A stretch of 64,000 bases of DNA, taken from Aminobacter aminovorans. GTDB taxonomy: Bacteria; Pseudomonadota; Alphaproteobacteria; Rhizobiales; Rhizobiaceae. Position 1 is the stretch's first letter, and each line of letters begins with the position of its first letter. The position numbers were made by a program, and so were the translations under genes. The notes under the pieces were generated by a model. It was not told the DNA's origin. It was given only the letters and a program-made list of their open reading frames with translations, and did not search any database. The stretch lies in assembly GCF_900445235.1 (NCBI RefSeq), contig NZ_UFSM01000001.1:1420501-1484500 (forward strand), written 5' to 3'. This document shows positions 45,456 to 63,137 of the stretch, in pieces.

Positions 45456-46376
45456 TCAGGTCGCGGGCCGGAACGGCTTGGCCAACGACGCCGGGAAATG
45501 CAGCGCCAGCATCTGGCGGTTCTGCGAGATGATGACCAGCACGATGATGGTGGCGAGGTAAGGCAGGGCGGAAAGCAGTTCCGAGGGAACCGCGATGCCG
45601 AGTGCCTGGCCCTGCAGCTGCAGGATGGTCATGCCGCCGAACAGCCAGGCGCCGAGCAGCACGCGCAGCGGCCGCCATGTCGCAAACACCACCAGCGCCA
45701 GCGAAATCCAGCCCTTGCCGGCGGTCATGTTCTCGACCCATAGCGGGGTGTAGGCGACCGACAGATAGGCGCCGGCAAGACCAGCCATCAGCCCGCCGAA
45801 CAGCACCGCGAGATAGCGGATGCGGATCACCGGATAGCCGATGGCGTGTGCCGTCTCCGGCGACTCGCCGATGGTGCGCAGCACCAGCCCGCCCTTGGTA
45901 CGGTAGAGGAACCAGCTGATGACGAAGAACATGACGATGGCGAAATAAACCATCGGATCGAAGCGGAACAGCATCGGCCCGATGACCGGAATGTCGGAGA
46001 GATAGGGGATGTAGATCTTCTTCAGCGCATCGATCGGTGCCGAGCCGAAGTTGCGGCCGAGGAAAGCCGAAACGCCGGAACCGAAGATGGCGAGCGCCAG
46101 GCCAGCGGCATACTGGTTGGTCAAGAAGGTCAGCGCCAGCACGCCGAACAATAGCGAGGCGGCTGCCCCGCCCAACGCGCCGGCGAGGATGGCGACCGGC
46201 ATCGGCAGTCCGGCGATGACCGCCCAGAAGGCGAAGGCCGCACCCATCAGCATCATGCCTTCGATGCCAAGGTTGAGAACGCCTGATTTTTCGACGACGA
46301 GTTCGCCAAGGGCAGCGAAGATCAGGGGTGTCGCGGCAATGATGGTGCCGGTGAAAATGGCGATGAACAGGTCCAT
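45456..46376 (-). CDS. ABC transporter permease, nucleoside/BMP type (second)
   Basis: A 306-residue permease of the branched-chain/ribose-like superfamily used by BMP-family importers. The N-terminal FAALGELVVEKSGVLNLGIEGMMLMGA is characteristic of nucleoside transporter permeases (NupQ/YufQ-like). It overlaps the upstream permease stop (TGATG). It is the last gene of the operon 51005-45456 and runs into the shared terminator. Confidence 0.92.
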   Translation of the reverse strand: MDLFIAIFTGTIIAATPLIFAALGELVVEKSGVLNLGIEGMMLMGAAFAFWAVIAGLPMPVAILAGALGGAAASLLFGVLALTFLTNQYAAGLALAIFGSGVSAFLGRNFGSAPIDALKKIYIPYLSDIPVIGPMLFRFDPMVYFAIVMFFVISWFLYRTKGGLVLRTIGESPETAHAIGYPVIRIRYLAVLFGGLMAGLAGAYLSVAYTPLWVENMTAGKGWISLALVVFATWRPLRVLLGAWLFGGMTILQLQGQALGIAVPSELLSALPYLATIIVLVIISQNRQMLALHFPASLAKPFRPAT

Positions 46377-47458
46377 CAAGCATGCTCCGGAATGCGGCGA
46401 AGCCGGTAGAAGATGAAGAAATCGGCGGCAAGCAAAAAGAACAACAAGATGCCCTGGAAGATGCGGGTCAGCGCAGCCGACAGGCCAAGATTCATTTGCA
46501 CTGCTTCGCCGCCGAGGAAAAGTAGCGACATCAGCAATCCACCGAGGACGATGCCGAAGGCGTTGAGGCGGCCGATGAAGGCGACGATGATCGCAGCGAA
46601 GCCGTAGCCGGGCGAGATCTGCGGCGACAATTGTCCGAGCGGACCCGAGACCTCGGCCATGCCGGCGATGCCGGCGGCAGCGCCACCGGCAAGCAGGCCG
46701 GTCCACACAGCAGCGGATTCGCGGAAGCCGGCGTAACGCGCCGCCAGAGGTGCGGCACCGCTGACCGACATCTTGTAGCCAAGGAAGCTGCGGTCGGTGA
46801 ACAGCCACATTACAAACACGGCGACGACGGTGATGAACACCGAGGCGTTGAGCCGATAGGCATAGTCGAACGGCTCGAACATCGCCGCCGCCGACAAAAG
46901 TGCGGTCTGCGGATAGTTGAAGCCGGCCGGGTCACGCCACGGACCGTGCACCAGCCACGACAGCAGCAGCGTGGCGATATAGGTCAGCATCAGCGTGACC
47001 AGGATCTCGTTGGTGTTCATCCGCGCCCTAAGGAAGGCGGGGATGGCGGCCCAGGCCATGCCGGCGATGGCGCCGGCAAAAAACATCAGCGGCAAAAGCA
47101 GCATACTGTCGGGGTCGGGGTAAAACAGGCCGACGCCGCAGGCGGCGATGGCGCCGATGATCAGCTGGCCCTCGGCGCCGATGTTCCAGACGTTGGCGCG
47201 GAAGCCGACGGCCAGGCCGCAGGCGATGAGGATCAGCGGCGAGGCCTTGAGCAGCCACTCCGACAGGCCGTTCATCGAGTTGAGCGGAGCGATGAAGAAG
47301 GCTTGCAGCGTCGCCAGCGGGTCATAGCCGAGCACGGCAAACAGCAGCGAGCCGACGAGAAGCGTTAACCCGGTCGCGATGACCGGTGCCGCCACCCGCA
47401 TCCTGGCGGATGGTTCCGGTCTTTGTTCAATCCTGAATCGCAACTTCGGCTCTCCCAT
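46376..47458 (-). CDS. ABC transporter permease, nucleoside/BMP type (first)
   Basis: A 360-residue permease (NupP/YufP-like): GLAVGFRANVWNIGAEGQLIIGAIAACG and LRARMNTNEILVTLMLTYIA are the conserved segments. The start overlaps the ATPase 3' end by 32 bp. Together with its partner it makes the pore for the BMP-type binding protein. Confidence 0.92.
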   Translation of the reverse strand: MGEPKLRFRIEQRPEPSARMRVAAPVIATGLTLLVGSLLFAVLGYDPLATLQAFFIAPLNSMNGLSEWLLKASPLILIACGLAVGFRANVWNIGAEGQLIIGAIAACGVGLFYPDPDSMLLLPLMFFAGAIAGMAWAAIPAFLRARMNTNEILVTLMLTYIATLLLSWLVHGPWRDPAGFNYPQTALLSAAAMFEPFDYAYRLNASVFITVVAVFVMWLFTDRSFLGYKMSVSGAAPLAARYAGFRESAAVWTGLLAGGAAAGIAGMAEVSGPLGQLSPQISPGYGFAAIIVAFIGRLNAFGIVLGGLLMSLLFLGGEAVQMNLGLSAALTRIFQGILLFFLLAADFFIFYRLRRIPEHA

Positions 47459-48968
47459 TGGTACCGTTGCCGCGGTCGACCCTTGTCATCAGCAGGCCGA
47501 TTTCTTCGCGGTTGGTTTTTGTCCTGATCAGTGGCGGCGACACCTGGCCCTGGCAGATGACGAGCAGGCGGTCGCAGATCTCGAACAACTCGTCGAGCTC
47601 CTCCGAAATCACCAGCACCGCGGCACCCGAGCGGCTCAGGTCGACAATTGTCTGGCGGATGAAGGCGGCCGCACCGACATCGACGCCCCAGGTGGGTTGG
47701 GCGACGAGGAACAGCCTGGGCTCGAGCGCGATCTCGCGACCGACGATGAACTTCTGCAGATTGCCGCCGGAAAGGCTTTGCGCGCTCGATTGCGGGCCGT
47801 TGGCCTTGACCTTGAAGCGCTCGATGATCCCGGCGGCGAAACTGCTCGCCTGCTTGCGGTCGACGAGGCCGTTGCGCACCAGGCCTGCGCGGTGAGCGGT
47901 CAAAACGGCATTCTGCCACAATGCATGCGGCGGCACGGCCCCGCGGCCAAGCCGCTCTTCCGGCACGAAGGCCATGCCGAGCTTGCGCCTTTCGCTGGCA
48001 TTGAGATGGGCGGCAGCCTTGCCGTCGATCTGGATCGCCAGCGCATTGCCATGGGTGCGCTCGCCGCTGAGCAGCGAGATCAGCTCGGCCTGGCCATTGC
48101 CGGAAACACCGGCAAGCCCGACGATCTCGCCGCCGCGCACCGCAAACGAGACGTTCTTGAGCTCGACGCCATATTTGTCGCGGGCAGCGGCGGTCAGCCC
48201 GCGCACCTCGAGCACCGGCTTGTCGCTCGGCACGGAGGGGCTGACATGCATTTCGGGCAGTTCGGCGCCGACCATCATGCGGGCGAGTTGGGCCGAGGTG
48301 CTTTCCTTGGGCCTTGCGGTGCCTGTCACCTTGCCGTTGCGCAGCACTGTCGCTGTGTCGCAAAGCTCCTGCACCTCGTCGAGCTTGTGGCTGATGTAGA
48401 CGATCGAGCAGCCTTCGCTCGCCAGCTGGCGCAAGGTCTCGAACAGCTTGACGACGGCCTGCGGTGTCAGCACCGAGGTCGGCTCGTCGAGGATCAAAAG
48501 CTTGGGCGCCTGCAACAGGCAGCGCACGATCTCGACGCGCTGGCGTTCGCCGACCGACAGGTCGTGGACGCGGCGATGCGGGTCGATCGGCATGCCATAG
48601 CGGTTCGACAGCTCGGTGATCTGGCGCGCCAGCGCATCGAGGTCGAAGGTGCTCGAAACGGCGAGCGCGATGTTTTCGACCACGGTGACGGATTCAAACA
48701 GCGCGAAATGCTGGTAGACCATCTCGATGCCAAGGGCCCGCGATGTCGCTGGCGTGTGGGCGGCGACGGGCTTGCCATCGCAGAAGATCTCGCCGGAATC
48801 GGCCTGGGCCGCGCCATAGATGATCTTCATCAATGTCGATTTGCCGGCGCCGTTTTCGCCGAGCACGGCGTGGATTTCGCCTGGCATGATCGACATCGAG
48901 ATGTCGTCATTGGCGATGATGCCTGGATAACTTTTGGTGATGTTGCGCAATTCGAGGCGTGGGGGCAT
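47427..48968 (-). CDS. ABC transporter double ATP-binding protein, nucleoside/BMP type
   Basis: A 513-residue ATPase with two fused nucleotide-binding domains, as in ribose and nucleoside importers. Half one has GENGAGKST, a DLSVGERQRVEIVRCLL signature and LLILDEPTSVLTP. Half two has the GVSGNGQ P-loop-like segment and the LSGGNLQKFIVGREI signature. The second P-loop is degenerate, as usual in this family. It shares 32 bp with the next permease gene. Confidence 0.93.
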   Translation of the reverse strand: MPPRLELRNITKSYPGIIANDDISMSIMPGEIHAVLGENGAGKSTLMKIIYGAAQADSGEIFCDGKPVAAHTPATSRALGIEMVYQHFALFESVTVVENIALAVSSTFDLDALARQITELSNRYGMPIDPHRRVHDLSVGERQRVEIVRCLLQAPKLLILDEPTSVLTPQAVVKLFETLRQLASEGCSIVYISHKLDEVQELCDTATVLRNGKVTGTARPKESTSAQLARMMVGAELPEMHVSPSVPSDKPVLEVRGLTAAARDKYGVELKNVSFAVRGGEIVGLAGVSGNGQAELISLLSGERTHGNALAIQIDGKAAAHLNASERRKLGMAFVPEERLGRGAVPPHALWQNAVLTAHRAGLVRNGLVDRKQASSFAAGIIERFKVKANGPQSSAQSLSGGNLQKFIVGREIALEPRLFLVAQPTWGVDVGAAAFIRQTIVDLSRSGAAVLVISEELDELFEICDRLLVICQGQVSPPLIRTKTNREEIGLLMTRVDRGNGTNGRAEVAIQD

Positions 48969-49093: not shown

Positions 49094-50188
49094 TCAGCCG
49101 AGCTTGCCGATCATTCCCTTGACGAACCAGTTCATGCCGCGGATGTCGGCATCGGCCAGCACGCTGCCTGCCGCAACCTTGACGTTGCCGTCCTGGTCCT
49201 TGAGTTCGCCGGCATAGGGGTGGATCTTGCCGGAGCCGATGTCGGCCTCGAGCTGCTTGAGCTTGGCGATGACGTCGGCCGGAATGGCTTCGTTGTACGG
49301 CGCCATCTTGACAACGCCGCCGGCCAGGCCGTCCCAGCGCGCCTCGGGCTTCCAGGTGCCTGCGGCCACGCCCTTGGCGGCGCCGACATAATCGCTCGAC
49401 CAGTCGAGCGTGAAGGCGGTGAGCTGCTTGCCCGAGCCGAACTTGGCCATGTCGCTGGCATAACCGATCGACCACGCGCCGCCTTCGCCGGCGACCTGCA
49501 CACCGGTCGCGGTGTCGGTCATCGAGCAGATGACATCGCAGCCCTGCGACAAAAGCGTGTTGGCGGCTTCTTTTTCCTTGCCCGGATCGAACCAGGAATT
49601 GAGGAAGATGGCGTTGCAGGTGGCGTCGGGATTGACGCTTTGCGCGCCGAGCAGCAGCGCATTGGCCGGGCCGACGATATCGGGGATCGGGAAGCCGCCG
49701 ATGAAGCCGATCTTGCCGGCCTTGCTCATATGCGCGCCGGCAGCGCCGGCAACGAAAGTGCCTTCGTAATATTTGGCTTCGAAGGTGCCGAGATTGGCGA
49801 GATGGACGATGCCGGAGCAATGCTCGAAGGCGACCTTTGGGAAGCGCGGCGCCACCTTCTGCATTGGCGTGCCATGCGAGAACGAGGTGCCGAAGATGAG
49901 CTGGTTGCCGGAGGCGGCGAGTTCGCGGAACACGCGTTCGGCATCCTGCGGCATGAAGATGTTGTCGATGACGGTCAGCGCGACCTTGTCGCCGAATTCC
50001 GCCTTGATGGCGTCGACGCCGAGGCTGTGCTGCTTGGTCCAGCCGATATCGGCGATCGGCGAGACATAGACGACACCGATCTTTAGCGGCTCCTGGGCGC
50101 TGGCGATGCCGGCAAGGCCCGTGGTGCCGAGAGCGGCGCCCGCGGCGCCGGAATATTGCAGAAATTGCCGTCTGGTCAGATTGAACAT
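49094..50188 (-). CDS. BMP-family substrate-binding protein (purine-nucleoside type)
   Basis: A 364-residue binding protein with a Tat signal (TRRQFLQYSGAAGAALG, cleavage near ASAQ) and a BMP/PnrA domain (LKIGVVYVSPIADIGWTKQHSLGVDAIKAEFG). PnrA/BmpA relatives bind purine nucleosides; rhizobial members also serve allantoin-like or other N-heterocycles. ATG 50188 is set by the signal. It is 46 bp after the GntR gene. Divergence from an NdmCDE-like demethylase operon suggests a methylated purine as solute (inference). Confidence 0.9.
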   Translation of the reverse strand: MFNLTRRQFLQYSGAAGAALGTTGLAGIASAQEPLKIGVVYVSPIADIGWTKQHSLGVDAIKAEFGDKVALTVIDNIFMPQDAERVFRELAASGNQLIFGTSFSHGTPMQKVAPRFPKVAFEHCSGIVHLANLGTFEAKYYEGTFVAGAAGAHMSKAGKIGFIGGFPIPDIVGPANALLLGAQSVNPDATCNAIFLNSWFDPGKEKEAANTLLSQGCDVICSMTDTATGVQVAGEGGAWSIGYASDMAKFGSGKQLTAFTLDWSSDYVGAAKGVAAGTWKPEARWDGLAGGVVKMAPYNEAIPADVIAKLKQLEADIGSGKIHPYAGELKDQDGNVKVAAGSVLADADIRGMNWFVKGMIGKLG

Positions 50189-50234
50189 GGTGGTAACCCT
50201 CTGTTGGTTGGATGCGCCCGGATTGTTGCCGGGT

Positions 50235-51005
50235 CTATTTTGAGGCGTGGACATGGGCATGTGCCCGTGCCGCGCCGTTTTCTCCTGCCTTCTTTCGTGG
50301 TGCCGGTTTCGGCGGCTCGCCTGGCTTGCCGTCGAGATAGGGTTCGAGCGCTTCGCGCGGCGTCAGCTCGGGAAACACCTGCCGGTCCATGATGTAGCCA
50401 CGCACCACAGAGCGGTGGTGCGCGTCGATCAGCTCCATCGCCGGCTTGAGCCGGCCCTTTTCGAGCAGGTCGATCACCCGGGCATGGTCGTCGAGCAGGT
50501 TGCAGTAGTCGAAATCGGCGGTGATCAGCGAGCGCAGCAAGGTCGTGCGGCGCACCAGCTGGGCATGGATCTCCTGCATCACCTTGTTGCGGCTGAGCCG
50601 CACGAACACTGTGTGGAACTCCTGCCCGAGCACGTCGGCGAGCGCGTCGTTGCCCGAAGCCACGGCTTGGCGCTGGCGCTCGACATGCTGGCGCAATTCG
50701 GCCCAGCCGGCAGGGCCGAGGCGGTCGCTCAATTGAGCGGCGACGCCCTGTTCGACGAGCGTGAGCGCGTCGTAGATTTCCATTGCGTCCTGCATGCTGG
50801 GACGGGCGACAAAGGCGCCGCGGTTGCGCTCGATCTGGGCAAGACCATCATCGGCTAGGCGGATCAGTGCTTGGCGGATGACGATGCGGCTGACGTCGAA
50901 TACCTCTGACAGTTCGCGCTCACCGAGCTTGCAGCCGGGGACGAGGCGGTGATCGAGGATCGCCCGCGTCAGCATATCGGCAATGGCCTGCGAGCGGTTG
51001 CTCAT
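50235..51005 (-). CDS. GntR-family regulator, FCD (FadR) subgroup
   Basis: A 256-residue repressor with an N-terminal winged helix (LGERELSEVFDVSRIVIRQALIRLADDGLAQIERNRGAFVA) and an all-helical FCD ligand domain with metal-binding His residues (EFHTVF, HHRSV). The C-terminus ends in a His-rich AHAHVHASK tail. It is first in the importer operon and divergent from the oxygenase operon across 240 bp. Three TCAATCAA half-sites lie in that gap, so it probably controls both sides. Confidence 0.9.
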   Translation of the reverse strand: MSNRSQAIADMLTRAILDHRLVPGCKLGERELSEVFDVSRIVIRQALIRLADDGLAQIERNRGAFVARPSMQDAMEIYDALTLVEQGVAAQLSDRLGPAGWAELRQHVERQRQAVASGNDALADVLGQEFHTVFVRLSRNKVMQEIHAQLVRRTTLLRSLITADFDYCNLLDDHARVIDLLEKGRLKPAMELIDAHHRSVVRGYIMDRQVFPELTPREALEPYLDGKPGEPPKPAPRKKAGENGAARAHAHVHASK

Positions 51006-51245: not shown

Positions 51246-52112
51246 ATGAGCATAGCTGCCCTTTGTAGCGACAGAGTCCTTCTTAACGATTGGCATGTGA
51301 TCGCCGACCTGACCAACCTGTCGGCGCACGAGCCGTTCCAGACCCGCCTGCTTGGCGTCGACCTGACCGTCTATTGCCGTGGCCGCTACAACAAGGAAGT
51401 GGTGCGAAACGACACCGGGGCGCTGGTCAATGCGACCAAGCGTTATGGCTTCCTGTGGGCCTGCCTCGGCAAGCCGGAGCGCGACATCGTGTTCGTGCCG
51501 GAGGCCGAGGAGGAAGACCGCTACCTGCTCACCGGCGGGTCGATCGCGGTCAAGGTTTCCGGCCTGCGCACGGTCGAGAATTTCCTCGACATGGGCCATT
51601 TCCCGTTCGTCCACACCGGCTGGCTCGGCGAGGAGCCGCATACCGAAGTCGCGCCTTACAAGGTCGAGCTGACGGCTGCCGACGAACTGGTCGCGACCGA
51701 ATGCAAATTCTACCAGCCGGTGGCGTCGCCGACGGCCAAGGAAGGCTTTGTCGTCGACTATATCTACAAGGTGATCCGCCCCTACACGGTGGCGCTCTAC
51801 AAGAGCAATCCGGTGCAGAAGGAGCGGCTCGACGTCATCACCTTGTTCGTCCAGCCCGTCGACGAGGAGAATTGCGTCGCCCATCCCTTCCTTTGCTATC
51901 TCAAGGACGGCAGCGACGAGGCCGGAATCCGCAACTTCATGCAGCTGATTTTCGCCCAGGACAAACCGATCCTGGAAAACCAGCTGCCGCGACGCCTGCC
52001 GCTCGACCCGCGTGCTGAAACGCCGATCCGCGCCGATGCGGTTGCTGTCTTGTACCGGCGCTGGCTGCGCGACAAATCAGTCACTTACGGCGCGATACCG
52101 GCGCGGATGTGA
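51246..52112 (+). CDS. Rieske-less oxygenase catalytic subunit 1, NdmC-like
   Basis: A 288-residue protein corresponding to the catalytic domain of Rieske mononuclear-iron oxygenases. NFLDMGHFPFVH (residues 112-123) gives the bridging Asp115 and iron ligands His118 and His123; the third ligand is probably Asp239 in FAQDKPILENQ. The first ~90 residues look like a collapsed Rieske domain (NDWHVIA..., RYGFLWACLGKP) but lack C-x-H and C-x2-H, so no Rieske cluster can form. Electrons must come from the Rieske domain of the 588-residue reductase two genes on. NdmC, the N7-demethylase component of P. putida CBB5, has the same peculiarity. ATG 51246 follows AGGGAGGG. Confidence 0.88.
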   Translation: MSIAALCSDRVLLNDWHVIADLTNLSAHEPFQTRLLGVDLTVYCRGRYNKEVVRNDTGALVNATKRYGFLWACLGKPERDIVFVPEAEEEDRYLLTGGSIAVKVSGLRTVENFLDMGHFPFVHTGWLGEEPHTEVAPYKVELTAADELVATECKFYQPVASPTAKEGFVVDYIYKVIRPYTVALYKSNPVQKERLDVITLFVQPVDEENCVAHPFLCYLKDGSDEAGIRNFMQLIFAQDKPILENQLPRRLPLDPRAETPIRADAVAVLYRRWLRDKSVTYGAIPARM

Positions 52113-52138
52113 ACCCGCGCCCTCAGGAGGAACCTTAG

Positions 52139-53044
52139 ATGACCGAGACGAGATGCAAGGATCAGGTGATCCTCGACCTTTGGCACCCGCTTGCCGCACT
52201 TTCCGAAGTGCCGGCTGGCGTGGTGGTCGGCACCATCCTGCTCGAAGAGCGCCTCAGCCTGGCCTCCGACGGCACCGGCAAGGTTGCCGTCTGGCGTTCG
52301 CGACGCGATCTGCCTGTCGACGGGCCGGTCGACATTTCAGTGGTCGAAGGCACGCTGCCGGTCAAGCTTGCCTATGGCTATGTCTGGACGTCGCTCGGCA
52401 ATCCGCCGGCCGACATCTTCCCGATCCCCGAATATGCCGAAGCTGACCGACGCAAGCTCAACGCCGCCACGTTCGGGGTCAATGTCTCGGCGCCGCGGGC
52501 GATCGAGAACTTCCTCGACATGGGCCACTTCCCTTATGTCCACACCGATATCCTCGGTGTGGAACCGCATACAGAAGTGAAGGAATACGACGTCGAGATC
52601 TCGGTCGACCGCGACGAGATCCTGGCCACACGCTGCCGCTTTTTCCAGCCGATGGCATCGACCACTTCGGATGGCGGCGCCGATGTCGACTACATCTACC
52701 GGGTGCCGCATCCCTATTGCTCGGTGCTCTACAAATCGAGCCCGATGGACGAGACGCGGCTCGACGTCATTGCCGTGTTCCTGCAGCCGGTCGACCAAGA
52801 ACATGTCCGGGCGCACATGTTGCTGTGCGTGCTCGACGAGGACAATGAAGACAAGGTGATCAAGCGTTTCCAGCAGACGATCTTCGGCCAGGACAAGCCG
52901 ATCCTGGAAAACCAGTTCCCCAAGCGCCTGCCGCTCGATCCGCGCGCCGAGACCCCCATCAGAGCCGACAAGTCGGCGATCGCCTACCGCCGGTGGCTGA
53001 GCCAGAAGGGCGTGACCTACGGGGTCATCCCGGCCGCCACCTGA
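52139..53044 (+). CDS. Rieske-less oxygenase catalytic subunit 2, NdmC-like
   Basis: A 301-residue paralogue of the preceding gene. NFLDMGHFPYVH (residues 124-135) supplies Asp127, His130 and His135; FGQDKPILENQ supplies Asp252. The N-terminus again keeps a Rieske-domain outline (DLWHPLAALSEVPAG..., YGYVWTSLGNP) without any cluster ligand. The two proteins share motifs but differ over much of their length, so they could make a mixed hexamer or act on two methyl positions. It starts 26 bp after subunit 1 and is followed at 41 bp by the reductase. Confidence 0.88.
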   Translation: MTETRCKDQVILDLWHPLAALSEVPAGVVVGTILLEERLSLASDGTGKVAVWRSRRDLPVDGPVDISVVEGTLPVKLAYGYVWTSLGNPPADIFPIPEYAEADRRKLNAATFGVNVSAPRAIENFLDMGHFPYVHTDILGVEPHTEVKEYDVEISVDRDEILATRCRFFQPMASTTSDGGADVDYIYRVPHPYCSVLYKSSPMDETRLDVIAVFLQPVDQEHVRAHMLLCVLDEDNEDKVIKRFQQTIFGQDKPILENQFPKRLPLDPRAETPIRADKSAIAYRRWLSQKGVTYGVIPAAT

Positions 53045-53085
53045 GCGCCTGAAGGCGCCAACGACAAGATATCAGCGAGGAACCT

Positions 53086-54852
53086 ATGCTCGACCTAGCC
53101 AAATCCAGATGGCATCCCATCGCCGCGGCGCACGACCTTCCATTGCGTCACGTCTTTCATGGCCAGCTGCTCGGCCGCGAATTCGCCGTCTGGCGCGCCG
53201 ACGACGGCTACGTCAACATCTGGGAAAACCGCTGCCTGCATCGCGGCGTGCGCCTGTCGATCGGTATCAATGACGGCCGCGAGCTGAAGTGCCAGTATCA
53301 TGGCTGGCGCTATTCGAACCGAACCGCCGGCTGCACCTATATCCCGGCACACCCGGCCGATGCGCCGGCCCGCACCATCACCAACCGCACCTTTGCCGCC
53401 GTCGAACGCTACGGCCTGGTGTGGTCGGCAGAAGAGCCGCAAGGCGAGGTGCCCGAGGTAACAGGGTTTGCCGAGGGCGAGCTTCTGGCGCTGCGCGCCA
53501 TTCCGGTCAACGCGCCCGCCGACGTGGTGGCGGCCAGGCTTACGGGCTACCGCTTCCAGCCAAGCGGCGACATCGCCGGCTCCGCAGCCAAGGTCACGGT
53601 CGAAGCCTCCAACGCCTTTTCGGTGGCGCTGCGTTCGAGCGAGGCTGATGCCAGCACACTCGCCGTGTTCTTCGTCCAGCCGGTCGATTCCAACCGCTCG
53701 GTGATCCGCGGCGTGCTCGACAGCGAGGTCGAAGGCGCTGCCCGTCTCGTCGTGCTGCGCCACCACAACGAGCTTCTGTCGCGCCTGCGTGTCGCCGTGG
53801 AAGCCGAGGCCGCGCGGGAACCTGCACCGGCCCCGCTGGAGCCGATCATCGAACGGGTCTCGCCAGAACTGGCCGAGATGCCGGAAGAGACGACACATGG
53901 CCGCAAGGCGACGATCCGCGTCCAGGTTAAGAGGAAGTGGCCGGCGGCCGATGGTATTGCCGGCTTCGAGCTCAGGCCGCTCAAGGGCCTGTTGCCGACC
54001 TTCCAGCCCGGCGCCCATATTGACGTGCATCTGCCCAACGGGTTGATCCGGCAGTATTCGATCACCAACGGCCCCGGCGAAAGCGACAGCTACGTCATCG
54101 GCGTCAAGCTCGAGCGCGACTCCAAGGGCGGCTCGACCTGCCTGCACGAGACGGTGCGCGAAGGCGACGTGCTGGCGATCTCCGAGCCGCGCAACAACTT
54201 CCCGCTGCGCCGCGACGCGGTCCAGACATTGTTCATCGCCGGCGGCATCGGCATCACGCCGCTGCTCGCCATGGCCCAGGCGCTCAACAACCAGAGCCTC
54301 AGCCACGAGCTGCACTACTTCGCCCAGAACGAAGCCCAGCTCGCCTTCCCCGAGAAGACAAAGACGCTTGGCGCCTCGCTCAAGCCGCATCTTGGGCTCT
54401 CGCCAGACCAGACCGGCGCGAAGCTGCGCGAGATCCTGTCAGGCTATGGCCCCGATAAGCATGTCTATCTCTGCGGACCCGGCCCGATGCTGGAAGCGGC
54501 GCGCAGCATCGCCGCAGAAATGGGCTGGCCGGAAACGGCGGTGCATTTCGAATATTTCAAGAACACCAATGTCATCGACGACTCCACCAGCTTCGAAGTG
54601 GCGCTGGCGCGCTCCTGCATGACGCTGACCGTGCCGGCCGGCAAGACGATCCTCGAAGTGATGCGCGACGCCGGCATCGACATGCCGTCGTCCTGCGAGC
54701 AGGGCGCCTGCGGCACCTGCCTTGCCACCGTCATCGAAGGCGAGCCCGATCATCAGGACGTCTATCTCAACGATGCCGAGCGCAAATCCGGCACCAAGAT
54801 CATGACCTGCGTGTCGCGTGCCAAGTCGGCGCGGCTTGTGCTCGACCTCTAG
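53086..54852 (+). CDS. Rieske-FMN-NAD-ferredoxin fusion reductase, NdmD-like
   Basis: A 588-residue electron-transfer protein. An N-terminal Rieske domain has C50-x-H52 and C69-x2-H72 (CLHRG, CQYHGW). Residues ~110-235 are weakly similar to the oxygenase catalytic domain (AVFFVQPVD at 193-201 against TLFVQPVD in subunit 1) but lack the His-His-Asp iron site. Then come the flavin (RQYSITN, 322-328) and NAD (GGIGITPLL, 386-394; CGPGPM, 463-468) domains and a plant-type 2Fe-2S domain with C537, C542, C545 and C575. This order and length match NdmD, which donates electrons from NADH through its own Rieske cluster. Confidence 0.9.
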   Translation: MLDLAKSRWHPIAAAHDLPLRHVFHGQLLGREFAVWRADDGYVNIWENRCLHRGVRLSIGINDGRELKCQYHGWRYSNRTAGCTYIPAHPADAPARTITNRTFAAVERYGLVWSAEEPQGEVPEVTGFAEGELLALRAIPVNAPADVVAARLTGYRFQPSGDIAGSAAKVTVEASNAFSVALRSSEADASTLAVFFVQPVDSNRSVIRGVLDSEVEGAARLVVLRHHNELLSRLRVAVEAEAAREPAPAPLEPIIERVSPELAEMPEETTHGRKATIRVQVKRKWPAADGIAGFELRPLKGLLPTFQPGAHIDVHLPNGLIRQYSITNGPGESDSYVIGVKLERDSKGGSTCLHETVREGDVLAISEPRNNFPLRRDAVQTLFIAGGIGITPLLAMAQALNNQSLSHELHYFAQNEAQLAFPEKTKTLGASLKPHLGLSPDQTGAKLREILSGYGPDKHVYLCGPGPMLEAARSIAAEMGWPETAVHFEYFKNTNVIDDSTSFEVALARSCMTLTVPAGKTILEVMRDAGIDMPSSCEQGACGTCLATVIEGEPDHQDVYLNDAERKSGTKIMTCVSRAKSARLVLDL

Positions 54853-54861
54853 GAGTTACCG

Positions 54862-55509
54862 ATGATTACGCTTTACGACTACGAACTGTCGGGCAACTGC
54901 TACAAGCTGCGCCTGCTGATGGGCATGCTCGGTGTCGAGTGGAAGACTGTTCCTGTCGACTTCTATCCCGGCCGCGAGCACAAGTCGGACTGGTTCCTCA
55001 AGATCAATCCGCTCGGCCAGCTTCCCGTCATCGACGACGACGGGCTTGTCCTGCGCGATGCCCAGGCGATCCTTGTCTATCTCGCTTCGAAGTACGATGC
55101 GTCCGGCACGTGGTACCCGCGCGACAATCCGGCACTGCTCGGCGAGATCAGCCAGTGGCTGGCCTTCGCCGACGGCATCACCGGCACGGCTTCGGCGGCG
55201 CGGCTGCATGATGCGCTATTTTACGACTTCGACGTCGAGGCGGCGCGCGCCGGTGCGCACCGGCTGTTTCGCATCCTCGACGAGCATCTGTGGTTCGGCG
55301 AACAGGAAGGGCGCAGCTGGATCTGTTCGGCGGCCCAGCCGACGATCGCCGACATCGCCTGCTTCCCCTACATCATGCTGTCGGAAGAGGGCGGCATTTC
55401 AAGACAGGACTATCCGGCGATCCGTCGCTGGTGTGACCGTGTCAAGCGCATCAAGGGCTTTGCCGTGATGTCGGGCGTGTTCCCGGCAGGCCCAGCCAAG
55501 GCAGCCTGA
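54862..55509 (+). CDS. Glutathione S-transferase-like protein, NdmE-like
   Basis: A 215-residue GST with an N-terminal thioredoxin-fold domain (LYDYELSGNCYKLRLLMGMLGVEW, NPLGQLPVIDDDGLVLRDAQAILVYLA) and an alpha-helical C-domain. Ser10 and Cys12 are in the active-site region. In caffeine degraders the GST homologue NdmE is an obligate structural partner of NdmC; position 9 bp after the NdmD-like gene supports the same role. An ordinary glutathione function linked to formaldehyde trapping is the alternative. Confidence 0.85.
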   Translation: MITLYDYELSGNCYKLRLLMGMLGVEWKTVPVDFYPGREHKSDWFLKINPLGQLPVIDDDGLVLRDAQAILVYLASKYDASGTWYPRDNPALLGEISQWLAFADGITGTASAARLHDALFYDFDVEAARAGAHRLFRILDEHLWFGEQEGRSWICSAAQPTIADIACFPYIMLSEEGGISRQDYPAIRRWCDRVKRIKGFAVMSGVFPAGPAKAA

Positions 55510-55564
55510 ATTCGATAGTTCGCCGGGCGAGCGCCCGACATTTACCTGATACTGGGAGAAAAAA

Positions 55565-56692
55565 ATGAAAACCCGCGCCGCCGTAGCTGTTGGAGCCGGA
55601 AAGCCGCTCGAGATCATGGAGGTCGACCTCGAAGGGCCACGCGAGGGCGAGGTGCTTGTCGAGATCAAGGCGACCGGCATCTGCCACACCGACGAGTTCA
55701 CTTTGTCGGGTGCCGATCCCGAAGGCATCTTCCCGGCCATTCTCGGCCATGAAGGTGCAGGCGTCGTCGTCGATGTCGGCAAGGGCGTGACCTCGCTGAA
55801 GAAGGGCGACCACGTCATTCCGCTCTACACGCCGGAATGCCGCTCATGCCCGTCGTGCCTCAGCCGCAAGACCAACCTGTGCACCGCGATCCGCGCGACG
55901 CAGGGCCAAGGCCTGATGCCTGATGGTTCGAGCCGCTTCTCGATCGGCAAGGACAAGATTTTCCATTACATGGGCTGCTCGACCTTCTCGAACTTCACCG
56001 TGCTGCCCGAGATCGCGCTGGCCAAGGTCAATTCGGACGCTCCGTTCGACAAGATCTGCTACATCGGCTGCGGCGTGACGACAGGCATCGGTGCGGTCAT
56101 CAACACCGCCAAAGTCGAGATCGGTTCGACGGCCATCGTCTTTGGCCTCGGCGGCATCGGCCTCAATGTGCTGCAGGGTCTGCGCCTGGCCGGTGCCGAC
56201 ATGATCATCGGTGTCGACATCAACAATGACCGCAAGGCCTGGGGCGAAAAGTTCGGCATGACGCATTTCGTCAATCCGAAGGAGGTCGAGGGCGACATCG
56301 TGCCTTACCTCGTCAACATGACCAAGCGTGGCGCCGACCAGATCGGCGGTGCCGACTACACCTTCGATTGCACCGGCAACGTCAAGGTGATGCGCCAGGC
56401 GCTCGAAGCATCGCATCGCGGCTGGGGCGAATCGATCGTCATCGGTGTTGCCGGTGCCGGCCAGGAGATCTCGACGCGGCCGTTCCAGCTGGTCACCGGG
56501 CGGAGCTGGAAGGGCACCGCCTTTGGCGGGGCGCGCGGCCGCACCGATGTGCCGAAGATCGTCGACTGGTACATGGAGGGCAAGATCCTGATCGACCCGA
56601 TGATCACGCACACGCTCAAGCTCGAAGACATCAACAAGGGTTTTGACCTGATGCATGCCGGCGAAAGCATCCGCAGCGTGGTCGTCTACTGA
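55565..56692 (+). CDS. frmA: S-(hydroxymethyl)glutathione dehydrogenase (class III alcohol dehydrogenase)
   Basis: A 375-residue zinc alcohol dehydrogenase. The catalytic-zinc segment GICHTDEFTLSG and GHEGAGVV, and the structural-zinc cluster ECRSCPSCLSRKTNLC, are intact. The FGLGGIGLNVLQG Rossmann motif and the MGCSTFSNFTVLPEIALAK signature identify class III. It oxidises the spontaneous formaldehyde-glutathione adduct to S-formylglutathione with NAD. Its place in the operon shows that formaldehyde is expected from the oxygenase. Confidence 0.95.
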   Translation: MKTRAAVAVGAGKPLEIMEVDLEGPREGEVLVEIKATGICHTDEFTLSGADPEGIFPAILGHEGAGVVVDVGKGVTSLKKGDHVIPLYTPECRSCPSCLSRKTNLCTAIRATQGQGLMPDGSSRFSIGKDKIFHYMGCSTFSNFTVLPEIALAKVNSDAPFDKICYIGCGVTTGIGAVINTAKVEIGSTAIVFGLGGIGLNVLQGLRLAGADMIIGVDINNDRKAWGEKFGMTHFVNPKEVEGDIVPYLVNMTKRGADQIGGADYTFDCTGNVKVMRQALEASHRGWGESIVIGVAGAGQEISTRPFQLVTGRSWKGTAFGGARGRTDVPKIVDWYMEGKILIDPMITHTLKLEDINKGFDLMHAGESIRSVVVY

Positions 56693-56700
56693 GCTCCCAA

Positions 56701-56726
56701 GACCGGCCAGGCTCCCATGGCCGGTC
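56701..56726 (+). terminator. Hairpin after frmA
   Basis: Nine-base arms GACCGGCCA and TGGCCGGTC with an eight-base loop lie nine bases after the frmA stop and just before the interspersed repeat. No T-run follows; partial termination or RNA stabilisation is possible. Confidence 0.55.
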
Positions 56727-56730
56727 CTCT

Positions 56731-56832
56731 AGAGAATTTCCGCTTTTCTTCGAATCGCGGAATCTCTCTATCTTCTTGTTTTTGCGCAATTTCTAGGGAA
56801 AACCGCTACGCACTTTTCCTGGAATTGCTCTA
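56731..56832. repeat. Interspersed ~100-bp repeat, copy C
   Basis: Homologous to copy B (31601-31702) over its full length and to copy A (29646-29685) in its second half. It splits the frmA-frmB interval. The remaining stretch to 57028 holds only a CG-rich segment and the frmB ribosome-binding site. Confidence 0.82.
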
Positions 56833-57028
56833 AGCGCTGTGGCTTTTCGCCGGCCCTCAAGCCTCCCAGCTTGGCCCGCGTGTTCCCAAAGCCATGGCGT
56901 CGACCGGCGGTGCGTCCGAGGTGTCTGCAACCCTCGTCCGCACCGCCGGCATCTCTTTTTGAACGGTTGCAGGTCCTGCGCCCCGACGTTATGCCGGGTC
57001 GGGATTGTTTGACGAGAAGGCTAAGCAG

Positions 57029-57862
57029 ATGAAGACCATTTCCACGTCGAAGTCGCATGGTGGCGTCCAGGGCGTCTATGCGCACGCCTCCGAGGCCTGC
57101 GCCTGCGACATGACCTTTGCCGTCTTCGTGCCGCCGCAGGCCAAGGATGGTCCGGTGCCGGTGCTGTGGTATCTCTCTGGCCTGACCTGCACGCATGCCA
57201 ATGTCATGGACAAGGGCGAATACCGCCGCCTCGCCGCCGAACTTGGCCTGATGATCGTCTGCCCCGATACCAGCCCGCGCGGCGAAGGTGTCGCCGACGA
57301 GAAGGACAACTGGCAGTTCGGTTCGGGCGCGGGCTTTTATGTCGATGCGACCGAGGCGCCATTCGCGAAAAACTATCGCATGTATTCCTATGTCACCGCG
57401 GAATTGCCGGCGCTGATCGCGGCAAACTTCCCAGCCGACATGTCGCGCCAGGCGATTACAGGCCATTCGATGGGCGGGCACGGCGCGCTGACCATCGCGC
57501 TGAAGAACCCCGAGCGCTTCAAGAGCTGCTCGGCCTTCGCGCCCATCGCCCAGCCTTCGACGGCAGGCTGGTCGAAGCCGGCGCTGGAGAAATATCTCGG
57601 TTCCGACGAGGCTGCCTGGCGCGCCTATGACACGACGTTGCTGATCGAAGACGGCAAGCGTTTCCCAGAATTCCTCGTCGACCAGGGTTCATCAGACAGC
57701 TTCCTCAACGAGGGCCTGCGCCCCTGGCTGCTCGAAGAGGCCTGCACGAAATCAGGCATCGGCCTGACCTTGCGCATGCAGGATGGCTATGATCATTCCT
57801 ACAACTTCATCTCGACCTTCATGGACGATCATCTGAGGTGGCACGCCGCCCGGCTTGGCTGA
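57029..57862 (+). CDS. frmB: S-formylglutathione hydrolase
   Basis: A 277-residue alpha/beta-hydrolase of the esterase D family. The nucleophile elbow is GHSMGGHGAL; the oxyanion region is WYLSGLTCTHANVMDKGEYRR; the catalytic His is in DHSYNFISTF. It cleaves S-formylglutathione to formate and glutathione, completing formaldehyde oxidation with FrmA. ATG 57029 is preferred to the upstream TTG. The gap of 336 bp to frmA, carrying a repeat, suggests a separate promoter or reduced co-expression. It ends 16 bp from the convergent thiD. Confidence 0.94.
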   Translation: MKTISTSKSHGGVQGVYAHASEACACDMTFAVFVPPQAKDGPVPVLWYLSGLTCTHANVMDKGEYRRLAAELGLMIVCPDTSPRGEGVADEKDNWQFGSGAGFYVDATEAPFAKNYRMYSYVTAELPALIAANFPADMSRQAITGHSMGGHGALTIALKNPERFKSCSAFAPIAQPSTAGWSKPALEKYLGSDEAAWRAYDTTLLIEDGKRFPEFLVDQGSSDSFLNEGLRPWLLEEACTKSGIGLTLRMQDGYDHSYNFISTFMDDHLRWHAARLG

Positions 57863-57878: not shown

Positions 57879-58649
57879 TCACGGCCTTACCGCCAGCAGC
57901 TTGGCGAAGACATGGCGCTTCGCCTTGCCGATGCTGATCTCCAGCGTTTCATATTGTGCCAGATGTGCCGCGATCGCGCTGGCCAGCATGCAGCCGGTGC
58001 CGCGCATGGCGACAGCGATGCGCGATGCGTCGAAGCGGACGGGTTCGCGCCTCGGCTGGATCAGCAGGTCCGTCGCGGTGGCGCCGGTTGCGTGGCCGCC
58101 TTTGACCAGGATGGCGGATGCGCCGGTGTCGAACAGTTTTTCGGCTTGTTCGACGATCTCTGTTTCGCCGGTGGCGAGCGGCAGGCCGCTCAGCAGCGCC
58201 AGTTCGGGCAGGTTGGGCGTGACAAGCGCGCACAGCGGAAACAGCTTGCGCTTCAGCGTGTCGATGGCCTCGTCGTCGAGCAGTTGCCGCCCCGAGGTCG
58301 AGGCGAGCACCGGGTCGAGCACGACAGGCACCGGCAGGCTGCTCGCCAGCACCGAAGCGACGGTGTCGATGGCAGTTGCCGTTCCCAACATGCCGATCTT
58401 GACCGCAGCGACCGGGTCGGCGGCGAAGGCGGCGCGCATCTGGTCGGCGACGAGGTCGGGTGGCATCTGTTCGATACGCTCGACGCGCTGATGCGTCTGC
58501 ACCGTCACCGCCGTGATGGCGAGGCTGCAGCGCAGGCCGAAGGCCGACACCGCCTCGACATCGCGGACGATGCCGGCGCCGCCGCTCGAATCCGAGCCGG
58601 CGACAATGAGCACATGGGGGAGCACATGCGGGAGCACATGCGGGCTCAT
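57879..58649 (-). CDS. thiD: Hydroxymethylpyrimidine (phosphate) kinase
   Basis: A 256-residue ribokinase-fold enzyme that phosphorylates HMP and HMP-P for thiamine synthesis. Conserved blocks are AGSDSSGGAGIVRDVEAVSAFG, VVLDPVLASTSG and RGTGCMLASAIAAHLA. The start overlaps the thiE stop (ATGA). The N-terminus is odd: three tandem PHVL units encoded by a 12-bp repeat precede the first beta-strand. It is the last gene of the thiC operon. Confidence 0.92.
   Translation of the reverse strand: MSPHVLPHVLPHVLIVAGSDSSGGAGIVRDVEAVSAFGLRCSLAITAVTVQTHQRVERIEQMPPDLVADQMRAAFAADPVAAVKIGMLGTATAIDTVASVLASSLPVPVVLDPVLASTSGRQLLDDEAIDTLKRKLFPLCALVTPNLPELALLSGLPLATGETEIVEQAEKLFDTGASAILVKGGHATGATATDLLIQPRREPVRFDASRIAVAMRGTGCMLASAIAAHLAQYETLEISIGKAKRHVFAKLLAVRP
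58609..58644. repeat. 12-bp tandem repeat at the thiD start
   Basis: Three copies of AGCACATGCGGG (the first with one change) encode PHVL-PHVL-PHVL directly after the start of ThiD. Confidence 0.9.
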
Positions 58650-59251
58650 CGCCACTGAGCCGTCGCTGCCAGCCACTGGCGCGTGCGCGCCTCGGGATCG
58701 GCGTTGAGCGTGATGTCGGTGACGACGGCAGCAATGTCGGCGCCGTAGGCAAAGACGCCTGATATACGCTCGACATTGAGCCCGCCAATGGCAACCAGCG
58801 GTGTGGTGCCAACACGCTTTTTCCATTCGGCGATGCGGTCGAGCCCTTGCGGCGCCCATTTCATCGCCTTGAGGATGGTCGGATAGACAGGGCCAAGCGC
58901 GACATAGTCGGGTGCGGCGGCAAGTGCGGTGTCGAGTTCGGCATCGTCATGGGTGCTGAGGCCGAGTTTCAGGCCGGCATGGCGGATCGCTGCCACATCA
59001 GCTTCGGCCAGATCCTCCTGGCCGAGATGGACGTAGTCGCAGCCCGCGTCGATGGCGAGGCGCCAGTAATCGTTGACGACGAGCTGGCAGCCATGGCGCG
59101 CGCAGATGGTTTTCGCCACGCGGATTTCGCGGCGCAGGCCGGCCTCGTCCATGTCCTTGATGCGCAGCTGCACCAGCTTGACGCCCAACGGCACCAGCCG
59201 CTCGATCCAGGCGGCGGAATCGACAATCAGGTAGAACGGGTCGAGCTTCAT
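58646..59251 (-). CDS. thiE: Thiamine phosphate synthase
   Basis: A 201-residue TIM-barrel enzyme joining HMP-PP and thiazole phosphate. [36 protein letters not shown] and the [11 protein letters not shown] loop are the expected segments, and [11 protein letters not shown] is the C-terminal phosphate loop. It overlaps both neighbours by four bases. Confidence 0.93.
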
Positions 59252-60021
59252 GAAAATGCTGCCATGCCGATGACGGGGGTGGAGGGGACGGCCATGTCGC
59301 GCGGTTCAAGCGGGCCGGCGCGGAACGCCTGCCGTCCGGCTTCAACCGCCTTGCCGAAGGCGGACGCCATGGCGACGGGGTCGCTGGCCTTGGCAACAGC
59401 CGTGTTGAGCAGCACGGCGTCGTAGCCGAGCTCCATGACGGTTGCGGCATGCGACGGGCGGCCGATGCCGGCGTCGACGATCAGCGGCACGTCGGGGAAA
59501 TGGCCGCGCAGGCTGCGCAAGGCATCGAGGTTCTGCGGGCCGCGGGCGGAGCCGATCGGCGCGCACCACGGCATCAGCACCTTGCAGCCGGCATCGAGCA
59601 GCCGCCCGGCGACAACCAGATCGTCGGTCGTGTAGGGGAAGACCTCGAAGCCGTCGGCAGCGAGAATCCCAGCTGCTTCGACCAGGCCGAACACGTCGGG
59701 CTGCAGCGTGTCGTGATTGCCGATGACCTCGAGCTTGATCCAGTTGGTGGCAAAGACCTCGCGCGCCATTTTCGCCGTCGTCACTGCTTCCTTGACCGAG
59801 TGACAGCCGGCGGTGTTGGGCAAGACGCGCACACCGAGCGACTGGATCAGCGACCAGAACTGGCCACCTGACTTGCCGCCCGAGGTCTCGCGGCGCAGCG
59901 ACACCGTGACGATGTCGGCCCCCGATGCCTCGATTGCCTCGGCCATGATGGCGGGCGAGGGGTAAAGTGCGGTGCCGAGCAGCAGGCGGGACGAGATTTC
60001 TTGTCCGTAGAGTTCGAGCAT
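59248..60021 (-). CDS. thiG: Thiazole synthase
   Basis: A 257-residue TIM barrel that builds the thiazole ring from deoxyxylulose phosphate, dehydroglycine and ThiS thiocarboxylate. [22 protein letters not shown] with the Schiff-base Lys, [14 protein letters not shown] and [11 protein letters not shown] are diagnostic. It starts 3 bp after thiS. Confidence 0.95.
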
Positions 60022-60024
60022 GGC

Positions 60025-60205
60025 CTACCCTCCCTTCATCGGTGCGAGGATTTCGATGCGGTCGCCATCGGTGAGGGCGCAGCCGTCGCGTTCCCGTGCC
60101 GGCACGACTTCGCCATTCAGCGCGGTGGCGAGCCAGCCCCCTTCGTAGTCAAGCTCGGCAAGCAACGCTGCCAGCGTGTCGGCCGCGACCTCTTGGTTTT
60201 CGCCA

Positions 60206-60222
<17 letters not shown>
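60025..60222 (-). CDS. thiS: Sulfur carrier protein ThiS
   Basis: A 65-residue ubiquitin-like carrier starting MKLTVNGENQEV and ending in the obligatory Gly-Gly (APMKGG), where the thiocarboxylate forms. It overlaps the 3' end of thiO by 17 bp and precedes thiG. Confidence 0.95.

Positions 60223-63137
<2,915 letters not shown>

Follow-up and report, generated by a model that had tools for sequence, protein, structure and literature searches.

Here, we describe a six-gene operon of Aminobacter aminovorans, located at positions 51246-57862 of the 64-kb stretch of DNA under analysis (hereafter ‘the window’), the co-directional genes of which encode two Rieske-less oxygenase subunits (C1 and C2), an NdmD-like reductase, an NdmE-like glutathione S-transferase (GST) homologue, and FrmA and FrmB (Table 1). 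We consider it probable that the operon specifies a split Rieske oxygenase for the N-demethylation of imported purines, with each catalytic subunit having its own position or substrate. The gene content had initially been read from the sequence and its open reading frames (the sequence-only reading), and Pfam and NCBIfam searches bear it out: two catalytic-only subunits, a Rieske-bearing reductase, a GST, and frmA/frmB, all in one direction. The source genome is a 5.89-Mb Aminobacter assembly of five contigs, and its C1 is 100% identical to a protein of A. anthyllidis LMG 26462.

The architecture is that of a split oxygenase. Neither C1 nor C2 matches a Rieske model in Pfam or contains a CxH...CxxH motif; neither, that is, unites a Rieske and a catalytic domain in one chain as a complete alpha subunit does, and both keep the 2-His-1-Asp iron site. 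C1, C2, and NdmC all have this site in full (E-N-F-x-D-x(2)-H-x(4)-H plus a later Asp); D115, H118, H123, and D239 of C1 are invariant in an alignment of 73 sequences, and their C2 equivalents are kept. In the alignment, the Rieske-less subunits appear to retain the first strands of a Rieske domain without the stretch that carries the cluster ligands. The missing domain is not the product of a local frameshift, since the frames are open and two catalytic subunits followed by NdmD recur in a row in 49 of the 80 fetched loci (the 80 best of 255 confirmed genome matches to C1, a sample biased to close relatives). Both subunits align over their full length with NdmC, C1 at 45% identity (128/282) and C2 at 46% over 290 positions; C3, a third Rieske-less subunit encoded elsewhere in the genome, reaches 44%. 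The NdmC reference (P0140), retrieved by protein search with a Pseudomonas relative, is the UniRef entry ‘Methylxanthine N7-demethylase’, M1EY73, which from entry name and species we read as the NdmC of Pseudomonas putida CBB5. With C1 at 26% identity to the full-length NdmA-like oxygenase of this genome and the C-D-E gene order kept, the NdmC-NdmD-NdmE logic recognised by the sequence-only reading stands.

That reading had also called for a phylogenetic comparison with NdmC. In a quick maximum-likelihood tree (114 of 156 collected rows, supported by Shimodaira–Hasegawa-like approximate likelihood-ratio tests [SH-aLRT] only, with no bootstrap), a fully supported and very long branch splits the Rieske-less subunits from the full-length oxygenases, and because of its length the root is unsure. 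C1 belongs to a group of 36 rows (SH-aLRT 99) that includes the single subunits of loci L061, L062, and L081, C2 to a main group of 26 rows (SH-aLRT 99), and C3 to a group of 6 rows (SH-aLRT 100); the C2-position proteins of L044, L048, L049, L051, L052, L055, and L063 are placed outside the main C2 group. C1 clusters with a group containing NdmC (62 rows, SH-aLRT 98), with C2 and C3 outside, and all three lie outside the narrower group formed by NdmC and its kin from Pseudomonas, Klebsiella, and Burkholderiales (SH-aLRT 98). C1, C2, C3, and NdmC are thus old separate branches. Orthology of C1 or C2 to NdmC is rejected on this placement, so that 7-methylxanthine specificity is not transferable to them; a recent tandem duplication of NdmC is rejected as well, the separate branches making the C1-C2 pair an old combination.

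C3 is encoded at ~1.07 Mb (L086:9621-10499), together with its own BMP-family importer and an AraC regulator; no Rieske partner, reductase, or GST was recognised in that 20-kb stretch. Its neighbours include a GcvT-family protein, with trimethylamine N-oxide demethylase as its best NCBIfam match (220 bits against a cut-off of 1100), and a protein of 274 aa that we take to be a relative of methylenetetrahydrofolate reductase (no NCBIfam match at 1e-20). In five relatives (L035, L039, L040, L041, and L050), C3 and its importer stand directly ahead of C1-C2-NdmD-NdmE, an arrangement in which a single NdmD/NdmE pair may serve all three catalytic subunits; the Aminobacter C3 would need NdmD in trans. 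Relatives of C3 at E<=1e-40 are found in 25 of 121 genomes of the same family (two genes side by side in 8), and among 396 order-level genomes a match at E<=1e-110 is confined to the source genome itself. In six of the 25 (G013, G018, G077, G085, G106, and G110), two such genes are separated by ~14-16 kb and lie on opposite strands.

The two-subunit arrangement is widespread. Among its 49 loci, which represent 16 named genera including Mesorhizobium (15 loci), Aminobacter, Ensifer, Labrys, Nitratireductor, Ruegeria, and Methylopila, a GST gene comes next in 48, and a BMP binding protein is encoded at most six genes upstream in 47. The codon score used for gene calling in the neighbourhoods was trained on the GC-rich window and missed genes in some relatives (e.g. 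L054, L059, L064, L077, and L084), so that failure to see a C1-C2 pair at a locus does not prove its absence. Of the 396 order-level genomes, 28 contain an NdmD homologue at E<=1e-140. In ten such NdmD loci, C1 and C2 precede NdmD with importer genes in three (L099, L102, and L103) and with a lone binding protein in L097, and six have a single C2-like subunit by best seed hit (L094-L096, L098, L100, and L101); L063 and L099 belong to one Methylopila genome, and L030 and L102 probably to one genome. A single genus (g103) accounts for 17 of the 28 NdmD-bearing genomes, and its loci L094, L095, and L101 combine one C2-like subunit with NdmD and NdmE, without importer or frm genes.

The adjacency of C1 and C2 in these 49 loci might mean that they are obligate halves of one hetero-oligomeric enzyme that catalyses a single reaction, and NdmA and NdmB are indeed given as an alpha3alpha'3 assembly in an excerpt of PMC12445004. 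We regard this as very unlikely. Both subunits have complete iron sites, and each occurs without the other: C2-group subunits are accompanied by NdmD and NdmE but not by C1 in L076 and L082, C2-like subunits (by best seed hit only) lack C1 in five other genomes (L094, L095, L096, L100, and L101), and C1-group subunits stand alone with a Rieske protein and a GST in L061, L062, and L081.

The reductase completes the split architecture, carrying an extra Rieske cluster in addition to FNR and plant-type ferredoxin domains. Across 37 aligned reductases, the Rieske ligands (C50-x-H52...C69-xx-H72) are invariant. PDB matches of the reductase include PDR (225 bits) and the ferredoxin domain of NdmD (6icm_D, 75.5 bits), and the best matches of its Rieske domain among solved Rieske oxygenases are SxtT and SxtDIOX. 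Residues 118-265 have no family assignment in Pfam, and profile comparisons nevertheless liken the N-terminal half of NdmD to an oxygenase subunit from which the iron site has been deleted, a mirror image of NdmC. A profile of the Rieske-less subunits scores 12.6 bits (E 1.4e-4) on the middle of the best NdmD homologue and 5.9 bits (E 0.016) on that of the window's own protein, with residue shuffles reaching at most 0.8 bits; in a profile-profile comparison, the NdmD middle matches the Rieske-less subunits with a score of 36.0 (E 8e-5, probability 61%), compared with at most 19.1 for 17 other families from these loci. When whole proteins are compared by profile, NdmD residues 5-223 align co-linearly with the Rieske-less subunits (E 6e-13, probability 97.9%), helped in part by the initial Rieske-fold strands. 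In the alignment, the Rieske-less subunits have no counterpart of NdmD 49-97, the segment with the Rieske ligands, and NdmD has no columns for both histidine iron ligands, the alignment stopping before the third ligand. Among solved Rieske oxygenases, SxtT and SxtDIOX outrank NdmA as matches to both halves, as expected if their ancestor was common. A stretch like the NdmD middle occurs in a Paraburkholderia Rieske-ferredoxin protein (E 6.9e-15) and, weakly, in a free-standing Paracoccus Rieske protein (E 3.5e-4) and in NdmD-like proteins of Pseudomonas and Klebsiella (E 0.015-0.018); no such stretch was found in the R. leguminosarum (E 0.34) or Shinella (E 0.5) Rieske protein.

These comparisons may reflect the duplication and reciprocal gutting of one alpha subunit, the NdmC-type copy having lost the cluster and NdmD the iron site. 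The two would then form a mixed ring in which one donor feeds interchangeable C1, C2, and C3 subunits (C3 in trans), i.e. a modular, position-by-position methylpurine N-demethylase. We put this forward tentatively, as a proposal that falls somewhat short of probable. Two results count against it: the NdmD middle scores only 13.2 against a six-sequence profile of full-length oxygenases, and whole NdmD matches full-length oxygenases via its Rieske domain alone (6-134). If NdmD is a gutted oxygenase subunit, its Rieske cluster would dock on NdmC where the neighbouring alpha subunit normally sits. For complete oxygenases, PMC12445004 gives ~12 A as the spacing between Rieske cluster and iron across the subunit boundary. 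In three variant loci (L090:11351-13493, L091:11192-13340, and L092:11307-14462), the Rieske protein is a free-standing chain of 213-220 aa beside a Rieske-less subunit and a GST, and L092 has a separate PDR/VanB-type reductase downstream.

The substrate class is suggested by the gene context of relatives, three divergent ones having the operon among genes for the route from xanthine to glyoxylate. In Rhizobium setariae (L035:1-20837), a single 20-kb stretch contains, in order, C3, the importer, C1, C2, NdmD, NdmE, frmA, and then genes for ureidoglycolate lyase, PuuE-UraD, hydroxyisourate hydrolase (HIUase), and XdhA, with serine hydroxymethyltransferase upstream, all of these enzymes scoring over their NCBIfam cut-offs. 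The operon of L097 is followed by 8-oxoguanine deaminase, PuuE, and guanine deaminase, also over cut-off. That of Methylopila (L063/L099) is accompanied by UraD (over cut-off), a xanthine dehydrogenase (XDH)-family enzyme below the XDH cut-offs, and HIUase and 8-oxoguanine deaminase, both assigned by similarity to the L035 and L097 proteins. Guanine deaminase adjoins L017 and L073 (over cut-off) and L042 and L085 (54-55% identity to the L017 protein), and single-subunit relatives adjoin HpxO, a nucleobase symporter, or amidohydrolases of the 8-oxoguanine-deaminase type. The source genome encodes XdhA beside PuuE-UraD and ureidoglycine aminohydrolase at ~1.71 Mb. These contexts agree on purines without fixing which purine, and the range left by the sequence-only reading (a methylxanthine, another N-methyl heterocycle, or a methoxy compound) was accordingly too wide and narrows towards purines.

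Formaldehyde release, which the same reading had taken from frmA/frmB, gains support from synteny in about half of the checkable loci: of the 39 two-subunit loci in which the sequence extends at least 1.5 kb further, 19 have a same-strand frmA within 2.5 kb downstream of the GST gene (25 of 52 overall), and none of 16 one-subunit loci (not filtered for room) has one beside it. These counts are not a test of independent events, since the loci are related. The window is not among the 52 loci, which do count the plasmid locus L005 of S. meliloti, L057, where no NdmD was called, and L080, where the subunits are not neighbours; L042 and L053, with frmA near fragments without a called GST, count in neither group, and L015 has frmB only. 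The genome contains three frmA copies over the TIGR02818 cut-off, any two of which are identical except at 3-5 of 375 residues. The second, at L104:3868-8152 (~4.15 Mb), lies behind a PDR-type reductase and a DdmC-like Rieske oxygenase, the best solved relative of which is dicamba O-demethylase (229 bits), in a cluster with a regulator presumably of the LysR type; with the present operon counted, two of the frmA copies thus adjoin Rieske operons of the demethylase type. The frmB of the operon is the sole copy found in the genome.

We infer the following electron route by analogy with NdmCDE, and we also infer complex formation, demethylation, a purine substrate, and one position per subunit. 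Methylated purines would enter via the divergently encoded BMP-family importer. NADH would supply electrons, which the flavin and plant-type ferredoxin of the NdmD-like protein would relay to the Rieske cluster of that protein and thence to the mononuclear iron of C1 or C2; the NdmE-like GST would hold the parts together. C1 and C2 would each oxidise a different N-methyl position (or substrate), and the unstable N-hydroxymethyl product would release formaldehyde, which FrmA and FrmB would oxidise to formate; the demethylated purine would proceed to the genome's xanthine dehydrogenase and allantoin pathway.

Several observations weigh against purine demethylation, and they bear on two alternatives. 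The closest solved relatives of C1 by sequence are SxtT (105 bits) and SxtDIOX (99 bits), ahead of NdmA (55 bits), and titles and the beginnings of abstracts present SxtT and its kin as C-H hydroxylases. No adjacent frmA is present in 20 of the 39 checkable two-subunit loci, S. meliloti included, and the HpxO, 2-oxoglutarate oxygenases, and 8-oxoguanine-deaminase-type amidohydrolases beside single-subunit relatives also fit purine hydroxylation. C1 and C2 could then be ring hydroxylases acting on purine C-H positions, as has been proposed for HpxDE, a Rieske enzyme of purine catabolism, with frmA/frmB as passengers. This alternative appears unlikely: the closest characterised relative found is NdmC, an N7-demethylase, frmA adjoins two-subunit loci but no one-subunit locus, and a molybdenum-free hydroxylase is not needed because the genome already has a xanthine dehydrogenase.

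The remaining adverse observations concern the purine itself. No purine enzyme was recognised among the window neighbours, which include an M81/MlrC peptidase and thiamine-type genes silent on purines, and the seed search found none beside the operon in most two-subunit loci. BMP importers are not purine-specific by family alone, and the best NCBIfam matches of the binding protein and ATPase are to a putative vitamin B6 transporter, both below cut-off; in Labrys, a cytosine-deaminase-family amidohydrolase adjoins the importer. The compound demethylated might accordingly be an N-methyl (or O-methyl) compound other than a purine, for instance an N-methyl heterocycle, a vitamin B6-like compound, or a plant betaine. 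We find this quite unlikely in view of the XDH, HIUase, UraD, PuuE, AllA, and guanine or 8-oxoguanine deaminases that adjoin the operon in distant relatives, and purine N-demethylation remains our preferred reading.

Intergenic gaps from C1 to frmB measure, in order, 26, 41, 9, 55, and 336 bp, the spacing being tight as far as frmA; for frmB, an alternative TTG start at 57005 is possible. A GntR homologue is encoded immediately upstream of C1 in 36 of the 49 two-subunit loci. The palindrome GATTG-N5-CAATC, a candidate operator, is present in 36 of 41 regulator-C1 intergenic regions (the window's included; the mean of 200 base shuffles is 0.015 loci), a conservation that partly reflects kinship since these regions are related by descent. 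Its form is GATTGrTATCCAATC, with A in 25 cases, G in 10, and one further variant, and it has one match only within the window. A promoter and terminator scan gave signals no commoner than chance. The operon GST is 66% identical to that of Herminiimonas (L080). Beyond frmB, the genes at 57879-63093 run towards it on the minus strand and presumably serve thiamine biosynthesis (thiD, thiE, thiG, thiO, and thiC).

Table 1. Coordinates (window positions) of the operon genes and of the regulator, candidate operator, and importer upstream
Feature	Position	Strand	Basis and remarks
C1, Rieske-less non-haem iron oxygenase subunit, 288 aa	51246..52112	+	VanA_C only; NdmC superfamily, subfamily C1
C2, second Rieske-less oxygenase subunit, 301 aa, separate old subfamily	52139..53044	+	VanA_C + KshA_C; 49% identity to C1
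NdmD-like reductase, 588 aa	53086..54852	+	Rieske, NAD-binding, and Fer2 domains (Pfam); PDR-type FNR and plant-type ferredoxin; possible catalytic-domain remnant ~118-225
NdmE-like glutathione S-transferase homologue, 215 aa	54862..55509	+	GST_N/GST_C
frmA, S-(hydroxymethyl)glutathione dehydrogenase, 375 aa	55565..56692	+	TIGR02818, 589.8 vs cut-off 543.95 bits
frmB, S-formylglutathione hydrolase	57029..57862	+	TIGR02821, 456.7 vs cut-off 281.7 bits; ATG start
Conserved palindrome GATTGATATCCAATC, candidate operator between regulator and C1	51166..51180	.	GATTG-N5-CAATC
GntR/FCD regulator, divergent	50235..51005	-	Pfam GntR + FCD
BMP-family (PnrA-like) substrate-binding protein, twin-arginine translocation (TAT) signal	49094..50260	-	PF02608
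ATP-binding cassette (ABC) transporter ATPase	47427..48968	-	PF00005, two stretches
ABC transporter permease 1	46376..47458	-	permease annotated at same place in S. meliloti; conserved in relatives
ABC transporter permease 2	45456..46376	-	permease annotated at same place in S. meliloti; conserved in relatives

At ~2.3 Mb from the window, the genome encodes an NdmA-like oxygenase that is complete (best PDB match NdmA, 138.5 bits) and comes with a PDR-type reductase of its own. The statement of the sequence-only reading that no complete NdmA/NdmB oxygenase is present consequently holds for the window and fails for the genome; that the organism lacks an NdmA-like enzyme is rejected. The cluster in question (L087:331-10449, ~3.79 Mb) also encodes an adenosine deaminase family protein, a BMP importer, and two AraC-type regulators and is a candidate for a separate purine-oxidation operon.

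That reading had described the combination as not known to be characterised, which was overstated: the excerpted 2015 review, citing Summers 2013, already mentions ndmCDE homologues of unknown function, mainly in Sinorhizobium and Mesorhizobium (PMC4408171), and ndm homologues need not act on caffeine, according to an excerpt of PMC8055839. Our results point to purine catabolism as one use of these rhizobial homologues. Searches of open-licence PubMed Central (PMC) literature yielded no report of paired catalytic subunits, the purine-cluster setting, or a catalytic-domain remnant in NdmD, and no characterised split Rieske oxygenase beyond NdmCDE; titles and the beginnings of abstracts on methylguanine, Rieske enzymes, and purine catabolism disclosed no such enzyme, except in the caffeine review. 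A link to published Sinorhizobium data through locus tags was dropped, as the papers retrieved matched SMa1507 only and could not be connected with the operon; the S. meliloti 1021 record has no gene annotation.

Among known systems, the closest likeness is to NdmC-NdmD-NdmE, the 7-methylxanthine N7-demethylase of Pseudomonas putida CBB5, which likewise comprises a Rieske-less subunit, a Rieske-bearing reductase, and a GST-like partner, and the CBB5 gene region of which, in the excerpt of PMC4408171, also has frmA/frmB. Unlike NdmCDE, the Aminobacter system has two catalytic subunits (three with C3) from separate old subfamilies, none of them orthologous to NdmC, as well as a BMP-family ABC importer and a GntR regulator, and has no NdmA/NdmB alongside in the window. 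The methylxanthine N1- and N3-demethylases NdmA and NdmB belong to the same oxygenase superfamily but keep their own Rieske cluster, which is absent in C1 and C2; SxtT and SxtDIOX, the best PDB sequence matches of the catalytic halves, differ as complete single-chain hydroxylases. Genes annotated as hpxD, of the HpxDE-type molybdenum-independent xanthine hydroxylase, weakly match the Herminiimonas C1 relative (28-32%), in the catalytic part only. The structure of the NdmCDE complex is still unsolved, according to an excerpt of PMC13237722, and the present family offers homologous complexes for structural work; that one Rieske donor and one GST accompany two or three long-separated catalytic subunits in it suggests a modular split.

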